In this document: positions 27,027-43,044 of the stretch, one piece after another
Layout: every line of letters starts with the position of its first letter
How positions within the stretch are numbered: position 1 is the first letter of the stretch
From: an uncultured Gammaproteobacteria bacterium
GTDB taxonomy: Bacteria; Pseudomonadota; Gammaproteobacteria; Nitrosococcales; Methylophagaceae
Assembly: GCA_905181885.1 (NCBI GenBank)
Contig: CAJIZI010000003.1
Coordinates: 62,001-126,000 of the forward strand
Length of the DNA: 64,000 nt
Direction: 5' to 3'
The notes under the pieces: generated by a model
Told to the model about the DNA's origin: nothing
Databases searched by the model: none
The model's input: the letters and a program-made list of their open reading frames with translations, nothing else
Position numbers and translations under genes: made by a program

Positions 27027-28518
27027 ATGCTGCTATCAGCTAAACAAGATTGGCTAGGTAATGTACGTAACGATATTTTAGCTGGGATTGTAGTTGCGTT
27101 AGCGTTAATACCTGAAGCAATTGCTTTCTCAATCATTGCAGGTGTCGATCCGAAAGTGGGCTTGTATGCATCATTTGCCATTGCAGTCATTATTGCGATT
27201 GTTGGTGGTCGTGCGGGTATGATTTCTGCAGCCACAGCAGCCACAGCGCTCTTGATGGTAACGTTGGTTAAGGACCATGGCCTACAATATCTATTAGTGG
27301 CAACGATTTTAGCCGGTGTCCTTCAAGTTGTGGCTGGCTTTCTTAACCTACATAAATTTATGAGCTTTATTTCAAAGTCTGTCATGACTGGCTTCTTGAA
27401 TGCCCTAGCCATACTTATTTTCATGGCGCAGCTCCCTGAGTTAACAAACGTAAGTTGGCATGTCTATGCCCTAACAGCCGTTGGCTTGGGCATTATTTAT
27501 TTGTTTCCTTATGTGCCTAAAGTTGGAAAGTTATTACCTTCACCACTGGTGAATATTGTTGTTTTGACAATAATTGTGTATGTATTCGACATACAAGTTC
27601 GTACTATTGGTGACATGGGTGACTCTGCCTGATACCTTGCCAATTTTCTTATGGCCGGATGTAGCCTTTAACTTTGAAACTTTAGGGATTGTATTTCCTT
27701 ACTCCATGTCAATTGCAATTGTTGGGTTACTTGAATCTCTAATGACAGCAAATGTTATTGACGAACTAACAGATACAGAAAGTGATAAAAAACGAGAGTG
27801 TAAAGGTCAAGGTATTGCTAATATAGGTTCTGGCCTAATTGGTGGTATGGCAGGATGCGCGATGATCGGTCAGTCCATTATTAATGTTAAGTCTGGCGGT
27901 AGAGGGCGACTATCAACAATGACTGCGGGTGTTTTATTGCTTATTTTAGTAGTTTTTCTCAATGATATTTTATCGATTGTTCCAATGGCAGCGTTAGTAG
28001 CCGTTATGATTATGGTTTCAGTAGGTACCTTCAATTGGACCTCAATTAAAGAATTGAAAACTAACCCAGTGAGTGCATCAAGTGTCATGGTGGCAACAGT
28101 GATTGTCGTGGTATGGACACATAATTTGGCCTTCGGTGTGTTTACGGGGATCTTGATTGGATCATTGTTTATGGCACAACGCCTTAGTCAGTTCTTGATA
28201 GTGGAAAGTGATTATCATGATAAGACGGATACACGTACTTACCAGGTTATTGGACAAGTTTTCTTTAACTCCTCGGATAGGTTTATTGGCTTTTTTGATT
28301 TTAAAGAAGCTGTTGATAAGGTAGTTATTGATGTGCACCGTGCTCATTTTTGGGATATCACTGGCGTTGCGGCACTAGATAAGGTAGTTATTAAATTAAG
28401 GCGTGAAGGTGCAGATGTCAGTATTATTGGTTTAAATGAAGCAAGTGAAACTTTATTAGATAAATTTGCAATTCATGACAAGCCTGAAGAAGTAGAAAAA
28501 ATGATGGGAGGTCATTAA
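27027..28518 (+). CDS. SulP-family anion transporter with STAS domain, +1 frameshift
   Basis: Inner-membrane transporter of the SulP family (sulfate, bicarbonate or dicarboxylate). The first frame (27027-27632) has the family start ([27 protein letters not shown]) and ends at TGA just after GDMGD. The next frame resumes [27 protein letters not shown] and [21 protein letters not shown], and ends in a STAS domain. Removing one T near 27624 (GAC-T-CTG-CCT) yields one 496-residue protein. A UspA gene follows 2 bp later, a pairing seen with bicarbonate-type SulP proteins; the substrate cannot be told from sequence. Confidence 0.87.
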
Positions 28519-29390: not shown

Positions 29391-29522
29391 TAGAAACGTA
29401 AAGAAAAGCTAGAAGTCCGTATTAAATCCTCTTCGGAAGGGGTTATGTTAATGGCGGGAAATAAATGAATTTTTTTATGGTTTTATTTGTTAAGTTCTCA
29501 TGTAGTGGGGAAGACACTTTCA

Positions 29523-30950
29523 ATGTCACGAGAAAAAGACTATGACCTTTGTATTATTGGCGGGGGTGCTGCAGGTCTAGTTACAGCAGCTGGAGCGGCT
29601 ACACTTGGCGCAAAAGTAATTCTTATTGAGAAAAATAAATTAGGTGGTGAGTGCCTTTATACTGGCTGTGTGCCAAGTAAAGCACTAATTCATTCTGCTA
29701 ATACTGCCTATAGTATAAATACGGCAAAACAAGTGGGCCTATCAGTAAATTTAAATGTAGTAGATCAGAGTGCCGTGATGCAGCATGTAGACGATGTAAT
29801 CAAACGTATTGAACCTAATGACAGCCCTGAACGTTTTCAGAAACTAGGAGTTGAAATTCTATTTTCAAAAGCGAAATTTGTAAATGCTGAAACTTTATCA
29901 GTAGGTCAGCAAACCATTACGGCCAAAAACTTTGTATTAGCAACGGGATCAAGGCCAGCAATTCCTAGTATCAAAGGTATTGATACAATTGACTACCATA
30001 CCCATGAAACGATTTTTAATCTGCAAGAGAACATAAAACATTTAATCATAATAGGGGGCGGCGCAATTGGCTGTGAGTTAGGACAAAGTTTCTCTAGACT
30101 AGGCTCTGATGTTTCAATTGTTACTCGTTCTGGCTTAATGCCAAGAGAAGATCAAGATATGAGCGAGGTCATACAGCAGCAATTTGAAGTAGAAGGGATC
30201 GAACTGTATTTAAAAAATCAGGTAAGAGAAGTAGTTAAAACAAAGCAAGGCATCGCTGTGCATCTCGATGACCCTCAGATGACAGTGATTGAAGGGAGTC
30301 ATTTGTTGATAGCTACTGGGCGCCAATCTAATATTGATAACTTGGGGTTAGAAGCCGCTAAAGTTGATACTGAAAATGGATTCTTAATTCTGGATAGCCG
30401 GTTAAGAACAACAAATCGACATATTTTTGCTTGTGGTGATGTAGCTGGACCATTTCTATTTACTCATATGGCTGAACATCAAGCGGGTATAGTATTAAGA
30501 AATACGTTATTTAAGCTACCTGTTAAGTCACAAACTAGCCGTATACCCTGGTGTACATTTACTGCACCAGAGCTTGCGAGGGTTGGTTTATCAGAAAGAG
30601 AGGCATTGGAGAAAGGGGTTAAACATAATGTATATACTTTCCCCTTTGATGAAATAGATCGTGCTATTACAGATGATCAAACGATTGGGAAGGCCAAAAT
30701 CATTACCAGTCCAAGAGGCAAAATATTAGGTGCCTGTATTGTCGGGCCTCAAGCAGGTGAGTTAATAGCCGAATACACTTTAGCAATGTCTGCTGGTTTA
30801 AGTTTGTCGGCGTTGAGTAAAGCTATTCATATTTACCCGACCTTAGCTCAAATCAACCGCCGTGTTGCGGATCAGCGATTGAAAGCAGGATTGACAGAAA
30901 ATAGGAAGAAATGGATAAAGCGCTTGTTTGGCTTGAGAGGCCGAGGTTAA
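29523..30950 (+). CDS. FAD-dependent disulfide oxidoreductase, mercuric reductase-like
   Basis: 475 residues from ATG 29523 (MSREKDYDL). FAD motif CIIGGGAAGLVTAAGA, redox pair GGECLYTGCVPSKALIH, second nucleotide fold IIIGGGAIGCELGQSFSRLG, CGDVAGPFLFTHMAEHQ and C-terminal HIYPTLAQINRRVADQRL. It lacks the N-terminal HMA domain and C-terminal vicinal cysteines of true MerA. One base separates it from the TVP38 gene, so it heads the arsenosugar operon. In that setting it may reduce an arsenic or dithiol intermediate; this is inference. Confidence 0.88.
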   Translation: MSREKDYDLCIIGGGAAGLVTAAGAATLGAKVILIEKNKLGGECLYTGCVPSKALIHSANTAYSINTAKQVGLSVNLNVVDQSAVMQHVDDVIKRIEPNDSPERFQKLGVEILFSKAKFVNAETLSVGQQTITAKNFVLATGSRPAIPSIKGIDTIDYHTHETIFNLQENIKHLIIIGGGAIGCELGQSFSRLGSDVSIVTRSGLMPREDQDMSEVIQQQFEVEGIELYLKNQVREVVKTKQGIAVHLDDPQMTVIEGSHLLIATGRQSNIDNLGLEAAKVDTENGFLILDSRLRTTNRHIFACGDVAGPFLFTHMAEHQAGIVLRNTLFKLPVKSQTSRIPWCTFTAPELARVGLSEREALEKGVKHNVYTFPFDEIDRAITDDQTIGKAKIITSPRGKILGACIVGPQAGELIAEYTLAMSAGLSLSALSKAIHIYPTLAQINRRVADQRLKAGLTENRKKWIKRLFGLRGRG

Positions 30951-30951
30951 G

Positions 30952-31638
30952 ATGTCAGTTAAACTAGTTACTTTAGTTGTTTTATCATTTTTCATAGCTA
31001 TGTTCTTTGTATTTAGTGGGCCTGACTACTTGACAATATCGGCTTTACAATCGAATAAAGCACTACTACTAGAAACAGTAGAGCAACACTATGGCTTATC
31101 TATTGTAGTGGCTATGATGATTTATATACTTGTTGTAGCTTTAAGTTTACCAGGTGCATCTGTTTTATCTTTAGCAGTAGGCTTTGTTTTTGGTCTTTGG
31201 TTGGGATGGTTACTATTGTTAGTTTCAGCAACTGTCGGAGCAGTATTAGTCTTTTGGTTAGTTCGTTATTTTTTTTATGACTGGGCAAAAGCTAAAATTG
31301 ATGTGATAACGGTGGCGCAAAAAATAACTACAGAATTTGAACAACATTCTTTTAATTACTTGTTATTTCTACGTTTGGTACCGTTGTTTCCATTTTGGCT
31401 CGTCAATTTGACAATGGCATTTACCAGTATTAAAACAAGCCAGTATGCTCTAGGTACATTTTTGGGTATTATGCCTGGTAGCTTTGTATTTGCTAATCTA
31501 GGTCGCTCTCTGGCTGATATTAAGAGCCTTGACCAGATTTTTTCACCACAGATGTTACTTGCATTAGTTTTGCTGGGTTTCTTAATGTTGTCGCCGATTT
31601 TCATTAGTCATTTCAGGCGTTATAGGAGTAGGGAATGA
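30952..31638 (+). CDS. TVP38/TMEM64 (DedA-like) membrane protein
   Basis: 228 residues, about five membrane segments. The SNARE-associated/VTT domain is visible as SLPGASVLSLAVGFVFGLWLGWLL and the FLRLVPLFPFWLVNLTMAFT block, where family members have a G/RLxPxxPxxxxN motif. Such proteins act as lipid scramblases or undecaprenyl/phospholipid-handling factors. Its place one base after the flavoprotein and 7 bp before arsS is a recurrent arrangement for arsenosugar or mer-like loci. Confidence 0.88.
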   Translation: MSVKLVTLVVLSFFIAMFFVFSGPDYLTISALQSNKALLLETVEQHYGLSIVVAMMIYILVVALSLPGASVLSLAVGFVFGLWLGWLLLLVSATVGAVLVFWLVRYFFYDWAKAKIDVITVAQKITTEFEQHSFNYLLFLRLVPLFPFWLVNLTMAFTSIKTSQYALGTFLGIMPGSFVFANLGRSLADIKSLDQIFSPQMLLALVLLGFLMLSPIFISHFRRYRSRE

Positions 31639-31645
31639 TTAATTT

Positions 31646-32602
31646 ATGTTAAATTCTAAACCTCTACTAGAGCTTAGTGATTTTCCAGCAATAGTCCGCT
31701 CTACCCTGACAACGATACAGGTTAATTTGGGATATTTATGTAATTTAAGCTGTGTGCACTGTCATGTTAATGCAGGACCAAAGCGAACAGAGTTAATGTC
31801 AAAGGAGACGATTGATCAGGTTTTGGCTTTTATAGAGCAATTGGATGTAACAACGCTCGACTTGACTGGTGGTGCTCCAGAAATGAATCCACATTTTAAA
31901 TACTTTGTAATAAAAGCTCGTGCTAAGGGCCTACGTGTTATAGATCGTTGTAATTTGGTGATATTAGAAGAGCCAGGTTATGAAAATTTAGCATTGTTTT
32001 TAGCTGAACAGGGCGTTGATATCGTAGCCTCATTGCCCTGTTACCTTGAGGATAATGTAGATAAGCAACGTGGTAACGGAGTATTTCAGTCGAGTTTAGC
32101 TGCATTAAAGCGATTGAATATCTTAGGCTACGGACTACCGGGGACAAATCTCATACTGGATTTAGTATTTAACCCACAAGGGATTAATTTGCCACCCGAA
32201 CAGAAAGCGTTGGAGGTAAGTTATAAGACCCATTTAGCTGCAGAATATGATGTGTTTTTTAATAAACTTTATACCTTAGCTAATATGCCCATAAAGCGCT
32301 TTGGTAGCATGTTAATGAGTAAGGGACTATTTAATGAGTATATGGCATTACTTGTTGCAAGTTATAACCCCGATACAGTTAACGATGTAATGTGTAGAGA
32401 GTTAATTAGCATTGATTGGCAAGGTTACGTCTATGATTGTGATTTTAATCAGATGTTAGATTTACCGATAGCAGACAAAGCTAAAGTTCATATTTCAGAA
32501 CTGGATGGTAAAGTACTTGCAAATCAGGAAATTGCAACTCGACAACATTGCTATGGCTGCACTGCTGGTCAGGGCAGTAGCTGTGGCGGAGCCTTATCAT
32601 GA
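31646..32602 (+). CDS. arsS: Arsenosugar biosynthesis radical SAM protein ArsS
   Basis: Radical SAM enzyme of the TIGR04167 (rSAM/Cys-rich) family that attaches the 5'-deoxyadenosyl group to methylated arsenic. CNLSCVHCHVNAGPKR is the cluster motif (about residues 28-43). TLDLTGGAPEMNPHF, IDRCNLVILEEPG and a C-terminal cysteine-rich segment (CYGCTAGQGSSCGGAL) are diagnostic. 318 residues. Upstream TVP38 gene is 7 bp away, downstream ArsM gene 25 bp away. Confidence 0.93.
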   Translation: MLNSKPLLELSDFPAIVRSTLTTIQVNLGYLCNLSCVHCHVNAGPKRTELMSKETIDQVLAFIEQLDVTTLDLTGGAPEMNPHFKYFVIKARAKGLRVIDRCNLVILEEPGYENLALFLAEQGVDIVASLPCYLEDNVDKQRGNGVFQSSLAALKRLNILGYGLPGTNLILDLVFNPQGINLPPEQKALEVSYKTHLAAEYDVFFNKLYTLANMPIKRFGSMLMSKGLFNEYMALLVASYNPDTVNDVMCRELISIDWQGYVYDCDFNQMLDLPIADKAKVHISELDGKVLANQEIATRQHCYGCTAGQGSSCGGALS

Positions 32603-32627: not shown

Positions 32628-33746
32628 ATGGCTTCAAAGCATAGTGTATTAGAAAGATATTCGGAAGGGGCTCAAGATCGTCAGCCTGATTTATGCTGTC
32701 CAGTTGATTATGATTCTTCATTACTAGCGTTATTACCACAAGAAATTATCGATAAGGATTATGGCTGTGGAGATCCTTCTCGCTATGTCCGTAAAGGAGA
32801 TATTGTTCTCGATTTAGGTGCTGGTTCTGGAAAAATTTGCTATATGGCAGCTCAAATTGTTGGTAAAAATGGCCAGGTAATTGGCCTTGATATGAACGAT
32901 GATATGTTGACTTTAGCTCGAAAATATCAGCCTGAAATGGAGAGCAAGTTAGGTGATGATCGAGTTAAGTTTGTCAAAGGCTTAATTCAGGATCTTACTG
33001 TTGATTTAGAAGCGATGGATAAGCATCTTGCTGAACATCCAGTGACCGATAGCGCATCGTTAACTCACTTACAATCATGGCAAGTAAATCAATCAAAGCA
33101 AATGCCATTAATAAAAGATAACTCAATTGATCTGGTGGTGTCTAATTGTGTACTTAACTTAGTACAAGATAGCGAAAAAAACAAGATGATTAATGAGATA
33201 TTCCGAGTCGTAAAACCTGGGGGCCGTGTAGCCATCTCAGATATCATCAGTGATGAGCATGTTCCAGATCACCTTAAAGCCGATCCGACTTTATGGAGTG
33301 GTTGCATTTCTGGTGCTTTGCAAGAAGAAGAAATGTTAATTGCATTTGTAGAGGCCGGGTTTGTGGCGGTATCTTATGACAAGTGGGAAAGTGAACCTTG
33401 GCAAGTAGTAGAAGGTATTGAGTTTCGCTCTGCCACTATTACTGGGATAAAACCTAAAGAAGATCCTTGTTTAGATGTTGGTCATGCAGTAATTTATCGT
33501 GGTCCTTACTCTAAAGTGTACGATGATGAAGGCCATGTTTATCCTCGCGGTCAGCGTATTGCAACCTGCCAACGGTCCTATGAACTATTAATTGAAAGTG
33601 TATACCGTGAGGATTTTATTGGTATTACGCCAAGAAAATTAAAACCAGAAGTAAACTGGTGCTCGCCCGCTGGGACATTACGTCCGGCTTCGGAAACGAA
33701 AGGTGCAATACATAAGGGTGATGCATCAAATACTACATGTTGTTAG
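32628..33746 (+). CDS. ArsM-type arsenic methyltransferase for arsenosugar synthesis
   Basis: Methylates arsenite or methylarsenite with AdoMet; here probably feeding ArsS. 372 residues. VLDLGAGSGKICYMAAQIVG is the AdoMet loop. Cysteines fit arsenic binding: DLCCPVDY near residue 22, CVLNLV near 170, PTLWSGCISGAL near 220, and a Cys-Cys C-terminus (TTCC). The ArsM-like fold ends near 280 and the rest is an extension (about 90 residues) found in this ArsS-linked subtype. Stop at 33746, 19 bp before the glycosyltransferase start. Confidence 0.9.
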   Translation: MASKHSVLERYSEGAQDRQPDLCCPVDYDSSLLALLPQEIIDKDYGCGDPSRYVRKGDIVLDLGAGSGKICYMAAQIVGKNGQVIGLDMNDDMLTLARKYQPEMESKLGDDRVKFVKGLIQDLTVDLEAMDKHLAEHPVTDSASLTHLQSWQVNQSKQMPLIKDNSIDLVVSNCVLNLVQDSEKNKMINEIFRVVKPGGRVAISDIISDEHVPDHLKADPTLWSGCISGALQEEEMLIAFVEAGFVAVSYDKWESEPWQVVEGIEFRSATITGIKPKEDPCLDVGHAVIYRGPYSKVYDDEGHVYPRGQRIATCQRSYELLIESVYREDFIGITPRKLKPEVNWCSPAGTLRPASETKGAIHKGDASNTTCC

Positions 33747-33765: not shown

Positions 33766-34458
33766 ATGCCGGAATTAAGCATTATCATTCCTTGTTTTAA
33801 TGAACAAAAAGGTATTGCTCTTTTTATACATAAGCTTCAAAAGCTTAGGCCTCAGTGTGAAGTTATTTTAGTCGATGGCGGGAGTGATGATAAGACTGTC
33901 CAGATAGCCGAACCATTTGTCGATCTTCTTATACATTCACCTTGTGGCCGAGCACAACAAATGAATGCTGGAGCTGAAAAGGCTTGTAGTAATGTTTTGA
34001 TTTTTTTACATGCAGATACTTTTTTACCCGACGATGCTGTGAGTCAAATTCAACAAGCTTTGCAAGAAGGTTATCGTTGGGGCCGATTCGACATTCGTTT
34101 GACAGGTGGACATTGGTTTTTACCTGTAATTAGTTATTTTATGAATATTCGTTCGGCAATAAGTGGCATTATCACGGGTGATCAGGCACTGTTTATTGAT
34201 AAAAGTTTATTTAAGGAGGTTGGTTGTTATCCCAATATTGCTATTATGGAAGATATAGCTCTGGCTAAAAACCTTAAAAAATATGGAAAACCTTTTCGTG
34301 TTTATAGTTGTGTCCACAGTTCAGCCAGACGTTGGCTGCAATATGGAGTTTATAAAACTATATTGCTGATGTGGTGTCTAAGATTAGAGTATTTTTTGGG
34401 TATTGATCCCAAACAACTAGCCCAACAATATCAAGGAGGGCAATTTTGGAAGTCATAA
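33766..34458 (+). CDS. Arsenosugar-associated family 2 glycosyltransferase (TIGR04283)
   Basis: 230 residues of the GT-A type. MPELSIIIPCFNEQKGI starts the NDP-sugar fold; VDGGSDDKT follows, LHADTFLP is the DxD-like site and GDQALFIDKSLFKEVGCYP the acceptor loop. ATG 33766 follows the arsM stop; the longer frame inside arsM has no ribosome-binding site. This family was originally named rSAM/selenodomain-associated transferase 2 and is now linked to arsenosugar loci. Confidence 0.88.
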   Translation: MPELSIIIPCFNEQKGIALFIHKLQKLRPQCEVILVDGGSDDKTVQIAEPFVDLLIHSPCGRAQQMNAGAEKACSNVLIFLHADTFLPDDAVSQIQQALQEGYRWGRFDIRLTGGHWFLPVISYFMNIRSAISGIITGDQALFIDKSLFKEVGCYPNIAIMEDIALAKNLKKYGKPFRVYSCVHSSARRWLQYGVYKTILLMWCLRLEYFLGIDPKQLAQQYQGGQFWKS

Positions 34459-35231
34459 TTCGCCTATCCGCTTTTATCGGTATTTTATGCCTAATGATGC
34501 TTTGGGAAGTATACGCCCCAAGGCGTAAATCGCGATACTCACGTCTACAGCGGTGGCCTACCAACTTTTCTATATCCATTATAGGCATGATTATCGTTCG
34601 CTTTACAGTCGGAGGCATTGCTTATGTTTCAGCGTTATATGCAATGGATAACCAAATTGGTTTATTAAACCAATTTTTAATACCAGACTGGTTTTCAATT
34701 GTAATAACATTATTGCTTCTGGACTTGGCTATTTATGGCCAACATAGGGCATCTCATCGTTGGCAATGGCTGTGGCGTTTTCATAAGGTTCACCATTCAG
34801 ATTTAGATTTTGATGTCACTACGGGAATAAGATTTCATCCCATAGAAATAATAATATCAATGTGTTACAAGGTTATTATTATCTATATTATAGGCTGTAA
34901 TCCGTTGGCAGTTGTTGTCTTTGAAGTGGTTTTAAGTGGCGCGTCACTATTCAACCATAGTAATATTTTTATTCCGCTTAAACTAGAACGACGTATTCGA
35001 CTATGGATCGTTACACCTGACATGCACCGTGTCCATCACTCAAGTAAAGATAAAGAAATAGATAGTAACTTTGGCTTTTCTATTAGTATTTGGGACCGAT
35101 TGTTTAGTTCTTATATAGATCAGCCACAATTAGGACACGATAAAATGGTCATAGGTTTAAATAGTTATCGTCACAGCCCAGATGTAGGTATTAAGAAATT
35201 ACTATTAATGCCTTTTAAATCTTTGAAATGA
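34446..35231 (+). CDS. Sterol desaturase/fatty acid hydroxylase family membrane protein
   Basis: 261 residues, four to five membrane segments. Di-iron histidine clusters: HRASH (about 101-105), HKVHHSD (about 115-121) and HRVHHSS (about 196-202), the standard fatty-acid-hydroxylase set. TTG start with a strong GGAGGG site 7 bp upstream; it overlaps the preceding glycosyltransferase by 13 nt and the next gene by 4 nt, so all three are translationally coupled. Family members hydroxylate or desaturate lipids. A role on the lipid part of an arsenolipid, or on the sugar-linked chain, is inference. Confidence 0.88.
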   Translation: MEVIIRLSAFIGILCLMMLWEVYAPRRKSRYSRLQRWPTNFSISIIGMIIVRFTVGGIAYVSALYAMDNQIGLLNQFLIPDWFSIVITLLLLDLAIYGQHRASHRWQWLWRFHKVHHSDLDFDVTTGIRFHPIEIIISMCYKVIIIYIIGCNPLAVVVFEVVLSGASLFNHSNIFIPLKLERRIRLWIVTPDMHRVHHSSKDKEIDSNFGFSISIWDRLFSSYIDQPQLGHDKMVIGLNSYRHSPDVGIKKLLLMPFKSLK

Positions 35232-35848
35232 CATATCTTTACCCGCAAGCGAGTCTTGCGGTTTTCTGCAAGGCACCGATACCGGGACAGGTCAAAACAC
35301 GCTTGATACCCGATATGACTCAACAGCAAGCAGCTGATGTACATATGTTATTAACAAACCGACTGTTAAGTTGGCTTGATAAAGCACAGCTCTGTCCAAT
35401 CACACTCTGGTGTTCACCTGATACATCACATCCATTTTTTCAAGCCTGTGCCGCTAAATATTGTATGTCTTTAGAGGAACAAAAGGGCACTGATTTAGGT
35501 GATAAAATGCAATATACGATAGCCCGTCATTTGAAAAGTTCAAGCCAAGCATTATTAATAGGTTGTGACTCACCTTCTGTCAGGCAATGTGATGTATCAA
35601 ACATGATAGAACGCTTACAAAGTAACGATGATGTAGTACTTGCACCTGCTGAAGATGGGGGTTATGTAATGATAGGGTGTAGAGAAGATTACCCCATACT
35701 GTTTTCTGACATGGAATGGGGTATCGATAACGTCTCAGATAAGACCCGTCTACGTGCTATTGAGTCTGGAATCCGTTTATCTAGCCTAAGGATCCATTGG
35801 GATGTCGATAATTATAGTGATTGGCAACGCTTTTGTGCCCTTGAATAA
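35228..35848 (+). CDS. Arsenosugar-associated glycosyltransferase-like (TIGR04282, DUF2064)
   Basis: 206 residues with the CofC-like nucleotidyl/glycosyl transferase fold: AVFCKAPIPGQVKTRLIPDMT, the KGTDLGDKM loop, LLIGCDSPSV and VLAPAEDGGYVMIG. Formerly rSAM/selenodomain-associated transferase 1. Last gene of the cassette; ATG overlaps the hydroxylase stop (ATGA). Confidence 0.88.
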   Translation: MTYLYPQASLAVFCKAPIPGQVKTRLIPDMTQQQAADVHMLLTNRLLSWLDKAQLCPITLWCSPDTSHPFFQACAAKYCMSLEEQKGTDLGDKMQYTIARHLKSSSQALLIGCDSPSVRQCDVSNMIERLQSNDDVVLAPAEDGGYVMIGCREDYPILFSDMEWGIDNVSDKTRLRAIESGIRLSSLRIHWDVDNYSDWQRFCALE

Positions 35849-40844: not shown

Positions 40845-43044
40845 ATGACCCTAAACAAGTTTACCGTTACTGCAGCAAGAGGTATGTTGCCATTGTTGGC
40901 AAAAGAGCTCGCGGAGATGGGCATTAAAGATACAAAGCAAGAACAAGGAAATATCCGATTTAGCGGAAATTTAGAGGATGCCTATAGAGTTTGTTTGTGG
41001 TCTCGTGTTGCTATTAGGGTGTTATTGCCAATTGCTCAATTTAGTGCAGAGACAACCGATGCACTTTATGCTGGCATCACAGCTTTACCATGGGAAGATC
41101 ATATTGATGCTGAAGGTACGACAATTGCAGTTGATTTTAATAGCTTCCGCTCAAAAATTCACCATACACAGTATGGTGCACAGCGAGTCAAGGATGGGAT
41201 CGTTGATAGGTTTAGGGAACAAAGTGGTGTTCGACCCTCAGTAGAATTACATCAGCCGGACTTGAGAGTTAATGTTTATGTTAAACACAACCAAGCAATA
41301 GTGAGTATTGATTTAGCTGGCGAAAGTTTACATAAACGAGGTTATCGTCTAGCTTCAACAGTGGCACCTTTGAAAGAACATTTGGCTGCAGCTATCTTAA
41401 TGACCGCAGATTGGAAACAACTTTCAAAACAAGGCTGGGGCTTATTAGATCCGATGTGTGGCTCTGGGACGTTCTTAATTGAAGCCGCAATGATAGCTGC
41501 TGATATAGCCCCAGGCAGTCATCGAGATTACTTTGGGTTTCTATACTGGAAAAAACACGACAAGGGAGTATGGAAACAGCTTAAAGCAGAAGCAGAAAGA
41601 CGTCGGCATAGTGGTTTAGCTCGTCTACCACCTATCAGAGGTGGAGATACAGATGCCTCTGCTGTTAAAGCAGCACAAGATAATATTGCAGAAATAGGTC
41701 TAGCAGAGCGTATTGTCGTAGAACAGCGTGATTTGCTTGGATGGCCGTCTCAATCTAAGCAATTACCTAATAGTGGATTAATCGTATGTAACCCTCCATA
41801 CGGTGAAAGGATGGGTAATGTAGCTGAACTTCATCATCTCTATGAAAGTCTCGGTAATATTGCCAGTGAGTCATTACCTGCTTGGCGAACAACTTTGATT
41901 ACGGATAATGCTGATTTAGGTAAGTTCACGGGATTGACACTGTTTGATAAAGTACCTTTTGATAACGGTCCAATCGCATGCCAAGTAATGCACTACCGGG
42001 CAGTCAGGGCACTCTCAGCTCAGTCTCAAAAACAAGAGCCAGAGAGAGATATAGCAACAGCTACCCCTGAGAATGACTCAAACTATGTTTTGTCCGATCA
42101 GGGTGAGATGTTTGCTAACCGTTTTAAAAAGAACTTAAAGCACCTAGCAAAATGGGCCAAGAAAAACGGGTTTGACTGCTACCGAGTTTATGATGCTGAT
42201 CTCCCTGATTATGCTGTTGCAGTGGATATTTATGGTGAGTATATTCATGTACAAGAATATGCACCACCTAAAGATATTGATCCAGACAAAGCATTACAGC
42301 GGCTTAATGATGTGATGTACTTAATTCCCAATATATTAAATATTCCCTCATCACAAGTTGTGTTGAAGCTCCGTCAAAAACAACGAGGTACTAAGCAATA
42401 CGAAGCTCAAGCTTCTCAAAAGCAAAGATTAAAAGTTAATGAATCCGGCTTAAATTTTTGGGTTAACTTAACAGATTATCTCGACACAGGTTTATTTCTC
42501 GATCATCGAATTACTAGACAAAAAATTGCTAGCCTCGCGGCAGGTGAAAACTTCCTTAATCCTATTTGCGTATACCGGTTCTGCAACTGTTTATGCTGCG
42601 ATGGGAGGAGCTGTTTCCACTACGACAGTGGATATGTCCAACACTTATTTATCATGGGCACAGGACAACCTATCCTTAAATGGTTTTAAAGGTGAGCAGC
42701 ATCAGTTCATTCGGGCAAATTGTTTGGAATGGCTACAATCAGCACAAGAAGAAAAACAACGTTATGGCCTGATCTTTTTAGACCCACCCACTTTTTCCAA
42801 CTCAAGTCGTATGGAGGGAGTCTTTGAGATACAGCGAGATCATGTCACGCTGATCAACTCATCAGTTAAATTATTGAAAAAGGGCGGGCAGTTAGTTTTT
42901 TCAACGAACCGCCGTGACTTTAAAATGGATAAAGGTTTACTAAAATCACTTGTTATGTTTGATATTAGTCATGAAACCTTACCAACAGACTTTAAACGTA
43001 ATACTAAGATCCATGCTTGCTGGATAATTAAAACTAGTGGTTAA
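40845..43044 (+). CDS. rlmL: 23S rRNA G2445/G2069 methyltransferase RlmKL, +1 frameshift in RlmK domain
   Basis: Fused bifunctional enzyme. The RlmL half shows THUMP and [16 protein letters not shown] with [10 protein letters not shown]; the RlmK half shows LNLFAYTGS-like AdoMet site and [12 protein letters not shown]. Frame 1 (40845-) goes off family at [10 protein letters not shown] and runs on to a stop at 42689. The second frame resumes [16 protein letters not shown] and continues to 43044. One extra C at about 42561-42562 (AAT-C-CTA-TTT) explains it; repaired length is 732 residues (E. coli 702). This is a large conserved gene broken in the middle of the catalytic site. Confidence 0.9.

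Follow-up and report, generated by a model that had tools for sequence, protein, structure and literature searches.

A PF04116 membrane hydroxylase as a probable partner of the arsenosugar synthase ArsS in Pseudomonadota

Introduction

Arsenosugars and arsenolipids are major organic arsenic compounds of marine environments. Diacyl arsenosugar phospholipids are among the arsenic lipids of algae, as are phytyl glycosides such as phytyl 2-O-methyl arsenosugar (excerpts of PMC7345539). Arsenic is adenosylated by ArsS in a radical SAM step (excerpts of PMC12159101), and ArsS works with ArsM (excerpts of PMC8552651). The closest described system is the ArsM-ArsS pathway of Synechocystis sp. PCC 6803. 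The locus described here is alike in that one operon holds an arsS gene above the TIGR04167 cut-off and an arsM-family gene, but it also encodes a PF04116 membrane hydroxylase (FAH), an enzyme not mentioned in the excerpts of PMC12159101 and PMC8552651. No arsenosugar-pathway enzyme past ArsM and ArsS is named in the portions of the literature examined. In the excerpts of open-access PMC papers, ArsS and the TIGR family names receive only passing mention, and no link of PF04116 or sterol desaturases with arsenosugars was found.

Two known enzymes come closest to FAH. OlsE (NF052566), its nearest named relative, which hydroxylates a lipid head group (excerpts of PMC3972451), is the same kind of enzyme, but FAH differs by its low score against the OlsE model, its OlsB-free genome and its arsenosugar context. 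The sphingolipid α-hydroxylase Scs7p (PDB 4zr0/4zr1) is the best solved structural match of FAH, although a weak one, and no sphingolipid context is known here. The place of FAH in an arsenosugar cluster and its recurrence with the key arsenosugar enzyme in many bacterial families suggest a step, so far unrecognised, in which arsenic-containing lipids may be made or decorated.

The FAH gene and its operon

The window, which is the whole 64,000-nucleotide stretch analysed (contig CAJIZI010000003.1), belongs to a member of the Methylophagaceae whose genome is 1.50 Mb in size and 99.7% complete. The operon runs PNDR, TVP38/VTT, arsS, arsM, GT83, FAH and GT82, and is followed by yjgA. Its features, in window positions, are as follows.

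29487..30950, plus strand: PNDR, a MerA/lipoamide-dehydrogenase-like FAD oxidoreductase by family matches, which recurs in arsS operons
30952..31638, plus strand: TVP38/VTT-domain membrane protein (PF09335, 86 bits)
31646..32602, plus strand: arsS, radical SAM arsenosugar synthase (TIGR04167, 460.9 bits against a cut-off of 300; C-x3-C-x2-C motif)
32628..33746, plus strand: arsM, arsenite methyltransferase family (best NCBIfam match NF040538, 349 bits, under the cut-off of 500)
33766..34458, plus strand: GT83, TIGR04283 family-2 glycosyltransferase (267 bits against a cut-off of 182)
34433..34440, plus strand: Shine-Dalgarno sequence of FAH, read from the sequence, lying within the 3' end of GT83
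34446..35231, plus strand: FAH, PF04116 membrane hydroxylase, 261 amino acids, TTG start (PF04116 match, conserved histidines, structural model)
34743..34757, plus strand: histidine box 1, HRASH (H100, H104), histidines invariant in 58/58
34782..34796, plus strand: histidine box 2, HKVHH (H113, H116, H117), histidines invariant in 58/58
35025..35039, plus strand: histidine box 3, HRVHH (H194, H197, H198), histidines invariant in 58/58
35228..35848, plus strand: GT82, TIGR04282/DUF2064 (172 bits against a cut-off of 134)

The arsM product scores 125 bits against the dedicated arsenosugar model NF038099 and does not reach its cut-off of 400. The reading frame of GT83 opens at a GTG (33703), but the likely start is the ATG at 33766, so that there is no overlap with arsM. 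The initial annotation described FAH as an intact enzyme overlapping both of its neighbours, and both points hold: the 261-residue open reading frame is free of internal stops and carries the PF04116 match (E 5e-30, 105.1 bits against a curated cut-off of 31) with the histidine boxes, and it overlaps GT83 (ending at 34458) by 13 nt and GT82 (starting at 35228) by 4 nt. A strong Shine-Dalgarno sequence within GT83 precedes the TTG start by five bases. The genome encodes no other PF04116 protein.

All 58 aligned relatives share ten histidines without exception, arranged as H-x3-H, H-x2-HH and H-x2-HH with the additional H131 and H171; three histidine boxes are the pattern of a di-metal site in PF04116. 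Enzymes of this family need O2. In comparison with a 96%-identical FAH (contig L037), the dN/dS is 0.065, the lowest among the five operon genes tested (arsS 0.093, GT83 0.138, arsM 0.177 and GT82 0.260). The AlphaFold2 model is all-helical and confident, with a pLDDT of 94.6 and a pTM of 0.91. Its match to Scs7p has a Foldseek E of 0.23, with Z 6.7 and an rmsd of 4.8 over 179 residues at 16% identity; no close structural relative beyond Scs7p stands among the matches listed (Foldseek, VIA), a listing that is uninformative about other families, and a sequence search of solved structures with FAH did not find relatives.

Linkage and co-occurrence of FAH and arsS

FAH is an intact, conserved member of its family that is genetically linked to and co-inherited with arsS. 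Within the class, arsS exceeded its cut-off in 180 of 369 genomes, and the best-scoring 149 were counted as carriers. A strong FAH, defined as at least 150 bits against a profile built from 16 relatives, was found in 121 of these 149. In 41 carriers, spread over 28 families, FAH lies at most 12.2 kb from arsS, and in all 41 the two genes share a strand; about 1.1 linked genomes would be expected by chance if genomes of 3 Mb are assumed. The next closest FAH and arsS genes that share a contig are separated by 38 kb, and the linkage limit of 12.5 kb was chosen after this gap had become apparent. None of the 48 weaker PF04116 paralogues kept from the 149 carriers is linked to arsS. Nine rows were left out of the linkage count, one being the second fragment of a split gene and eight scoring under 50 bits, none of the latter on an arsS contig. 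On the same-strand arrangement and the 28 linked families we reject accidental adjacency. The proximity of PF04116 genes to arsS is thus not confined to a single genome, the outcome that would have spoken against the initial annotation.

In most carriers FAH is unlinked to arsS, and co-occurrence extends to them. Across the class, a strong FAH occurs in 121/149 carriers versus 11/75 non-carriers, and in 80/108 versus 11/75 when linked genomes are removed; these genomes are related rather than independent, the Fisher test ignores kinship, and the 75 non-carriers were hand-picked in listing order, with several incomplete genomes skipped, all having a weak radical-SAM match. Counted by family, FAH is present in 73 of 84 families with a carrier and in 11 of 64 with a non-carrier. 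Fourteen families contain both kinds of genome: in 11 the carriers have FAH and the non-carriers lack it, in none is the reverse seen, and three are ties.

In the order, the FAH protein search matched 30 of 63 genomes, 22 of them with at least 150 bits. arsS was over its cut-off in 26 of the 63, and all 22 strong-FAH genomes are among these (22/26 carriers versus 0/37 non-carriers); the best score in a non-carrier is 128.7 bits (G380). One further carrier (G377) has an FAH fragment at a contig end beside a GT83 gene (contig L030), and three carriers have neither a strong FAH nor such a fragment (G392, which is 73% complete, G411 and G412). A more distant FAH (46% and 45%) lies away from arsS in G382 and G389. 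Within one genus, 18 of 20 arsS carriers have a strong FAH (19 with the contig-end fragment) versus none of nine genomes without arsS; the genes there are mostly linked, and the order arsM-GT83-FAH-GT82 recurs.

A draw across the phylum gave FAH in 59 of 74 carriers versus 13 of 64 non-carriers, and outside the class in 58 of 72 versus 8 of 45. Two carriers already counted (G000, G086) were left out; the 64 non-carriers are the genomes of the draw not listed as carriers, less 18 met earlier and two with a partial arsS (G536, G540). In one genome of the draw (G567) 71 bases separate FAH from the arsS gene that follows it on the same strand; in most other carriers the two genes are not on one stretch.

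From the linkage, together with co-occurrence even where the genes are unlinked, FAH very probably works together with ArsS in Pseudomonadota, and the view that the gene is coupled to its neighbours and unlikely to be a bystander is strongly supported. Counting against the partnership are the presence of FAH in 11/75 and 13/64 non-carriers and the lack of linkage in most carriers. FAH is not essential to ArsS, since no strong FAH was found in 28 of the 149 class carriers and 15 of the 74 phylum carriers, which include drafts but are not all drafts. As a companion of ArsS across many families, FAH is a concrete, knock-out-ready candidate for a later pathway step and a genomic marker of potential arsenic-lipid producers.

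Operon architecture and phylogeny

Forty of the 41 linked genomes were mapped (G187 was left out), and FAH was missed in three, giving 37 loci for comparison with 20 unlinked ones. The common operon consists, in this order, of FAH, TVP38, arsS, a glycosyltransferase, a nucleotidyltransferase and arsM, and is preceded by a divergent gene whose product combines an ArsR-type regulator with a rhodanese domain. A same-strand arsS, glycosyltransferase, TVP38, arsM or PNDR gene stands directly beside FAH in 33/37 linked and 5/20 unlinked loci, TVP38 is directly downstream of FAH in 23/37 and 5/20, and the ArsR-rhodanese gene is divergent from FAH in 16/37 and 3/20. The FAH-TVP38 pairs of five unlinked loci, where arsS is not nearby, suggest that the pair may have a broader role. 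An example of the regulator (L202:9246-9923) is divergent from an FAH-TVP38-arsS operon; one might guess that it senses sulfane sulfur or metalloids. Near arsS-FAH operons there also recurs a conserved protein of about 125-135 amino acids (L188:5661-6071 and relatives) that matched no Pfam family.

Other arrangements keep FAH among arsenic genes. In L182 the order is arsM, an arsenate-reductase-like phosphatase gene (arsC), FAH, arsS and PNDR. In L107, from a Burkholderiaceae MAG, it is TVP38-PNDR-arsS-FAH-MTAP-GT83-GT82, where the methylthioadenosine (MTA) phosphorylase between FAH and GT83 (L107:4411-5253) scores 278 bits against a cut-off of 274.85. The arsS-FAH locus of G356 has an MTA phosphorylase (L177:8045-8881) 68% identical to that of L107, and the genome of the window has a related gene elsewhere, at 262.8 bits under the cut-off.

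Species genomes were also scanned for FAH relatives, and the neighbourhoods of the best 80 of 585 were checked. Among these, a Ca. Thioglobus MAG carries FAH-TVP38-arsS-GT83-GT82, a Thioalkalivibrio MAG FAH-TVP38-GT83-GT82 and a Burkholderiaceae MAG TVP38-PNDR-arsS-FAH-x-GT83-GT82. GT83-FAH-GT82 occurs in Methylobacter luteus, Ca. Methylobacter favarea, Methyloglobulus and Methylomonas sp. LW13, the last of which has two FAH copies joined to GT83. For most of the best 80 of 585, arsS or a glycosyltransferase gene was not found near FAH in the stretch examined. In several methanotroph loci GT83-FAH stands without arsS in that stretch, which counts against the partnership with ArsS. A quick tree built from 99 FAHs places that of the window together with its own genus, family f66 and Methylococcaceae in a clade of 18 rows (support 96). 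Taking linked to include some methanotroph loci where FAH is joined to GT83 or GT82 but not to arsS, 17 of these 18 rows are linked, and the linked state requires 18 changes on the whole tree versus 33.2 in shuffles.

Proposed pathway

Both neighbours of FAH exceed the cut-offs of TIGR04282 and TIGR04283, the "arsenosugar biosynthesis glycosyltransferases". Their name comes from the library. The GT82 model (pLDDT 97.2) matches best the unassigned structure 3cgx, followed by guanylyltransferases acting on 3-phosphoglycerate and PEP (FbiD). The predicted fold is that of a CofC/FbiD-type nucleotidyltransferase, GT82 may be such an enzyme, and the label "glycosyltransferase" may be wrong for TIGR04282. 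With these matches, activation of a phosphorylated substrate fits better than glycosyl transfer. The product of ArsS resembles methylthioadenosine, so a phosphorylase from the operon would be expected to yield an arsenic ribose-1-phosphate. The operon MTA phosphorylase is a candidate enzyme for removing adenine during arsenosugar synthesis. With a nucleotidyltransferase step suggested by the same loci, the steps missing from the middle of the pathway become open to experiment.

As we infer the substrate of FAH, the order of the steps and the roles of GT82, GT83 and TVP38, the route would start with ArsM forming dimethylarsenite, which ArsS would join to the 5'-deoxyadenosyl group of SAM. Adenine would then be taken off by an MTA-phosphorylase-type enzyme, leaving 5-dimethylarsino-ribose-1-phosphate; GT82 would activate this compound with a nucleotide, and GT83 would transfer the arsenic sugar to a membrane lipid. 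Before or after this transfer FAH would hydroxylate the lipid partner, and the TVP38 protein would move the lipid across the membrane. A lipid acceptor is the economical reading, since FAH and TVP38 are membrane-acting by family. The likeliest role of FAH is either to hydroxylate the lipid moiety of an arsenosugar lipid or to create the hydroxyl that bears the arsenic sugar. A modified arsenosugar phospholipid, the end product raised in the initial annotation, is one possible outcome, but FAH could act on another membrane lipid.

Alternative explanations

The main rival is that FAH is a co-regulated general membrane hydroxylase. FAH and TVP38 would form a membrane-stress module induced through the ArsR-rhodanese regulator by metalloids or reactive sulfur, an ordinary phospholipid and never an arsenic compound would be hydroxylated, and co-regulation would explain the linkage. 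The divergent regulator and the downstream TVP38 gene, at the frequencies given above, and neighbouring DsrE and multihaem cytochrome genes agree with such a module. In the clade of the window, on the other hand, FAH overlaps between GT83 and GT82 and no ArsR-rhodanese gene adjoins; in L182 and L107 FAH likewise lies among arsenic genes without this adjoining regulator, and its co-occurrence tracks arsS even when the genes are unlinked. We regard this explanation as possible but on the doubtful side. A shared aerobic environmental lifestyle and genome size could also produce the association, with adjacency arising by hitchhiking, and the O2 requirement of FAH, the relatedness of the genomes and the lifestyles of the sampled non-carriers, which may differ, lend themselves to it; yet such a cause cannot produce 41 same-strand linkages in 41 genomes or overlapping genes, and the contrasts within families (11 to 0) and within one genus of mostly linked genes make it very improbable. 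That FAH hydroxylates ornithine lipids in the manner of OlsE and came to lie here by chance is hardly credible. NF052566 is the only NCBIfam match of the five FAHs scanned (74-98 bits), but the 80 bits of the window FAH are far under the OlsE cut-off of 475, and 28 linked families are hard to reconcile with a chance placement. The 99.7% complete genome gave no match to OlsB (PF13444), so an ornithine lipid is an unlikely substrate here, the OlsB route being the one tested.

That FAH is a di-metal, oxygen-dependent membrane hydroxylase of the ArsS pathway, acting along the proposed route, seems to us by a little the probable case. A narrower version of it, rather unlikely in our estimate, is that FAH makes an acceptor hydroxyl on a membrane lipid to which GT83 then attaches nucleotide-activated dimethylarsino-ribose. 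The phytyl 2-O-methyl arsenosugar of algae is a precedent for a linkage between sugar and lipid alcohol (excerpts of PMC7345539). If this were true, the arsenic-sugar lipid would be built differently from the algal arsenosugar phospholipids, and the pairing of ArsS with FAH would be the signature of a class of bacterial arsenolipids that is widespread and so far unrecognised.

Additional observations in the window

Two genes outside the operon are split between frames. A gene for a SulP-type transporter (27027-28518) lies in two frames with a break near 27600, an apparent frameshift that may be real or made by the assembly. A large RNA methyltransferase gene (40845-43044), presumably RlmL-like, occupies two overlapping frames and is a second possible frameshift.
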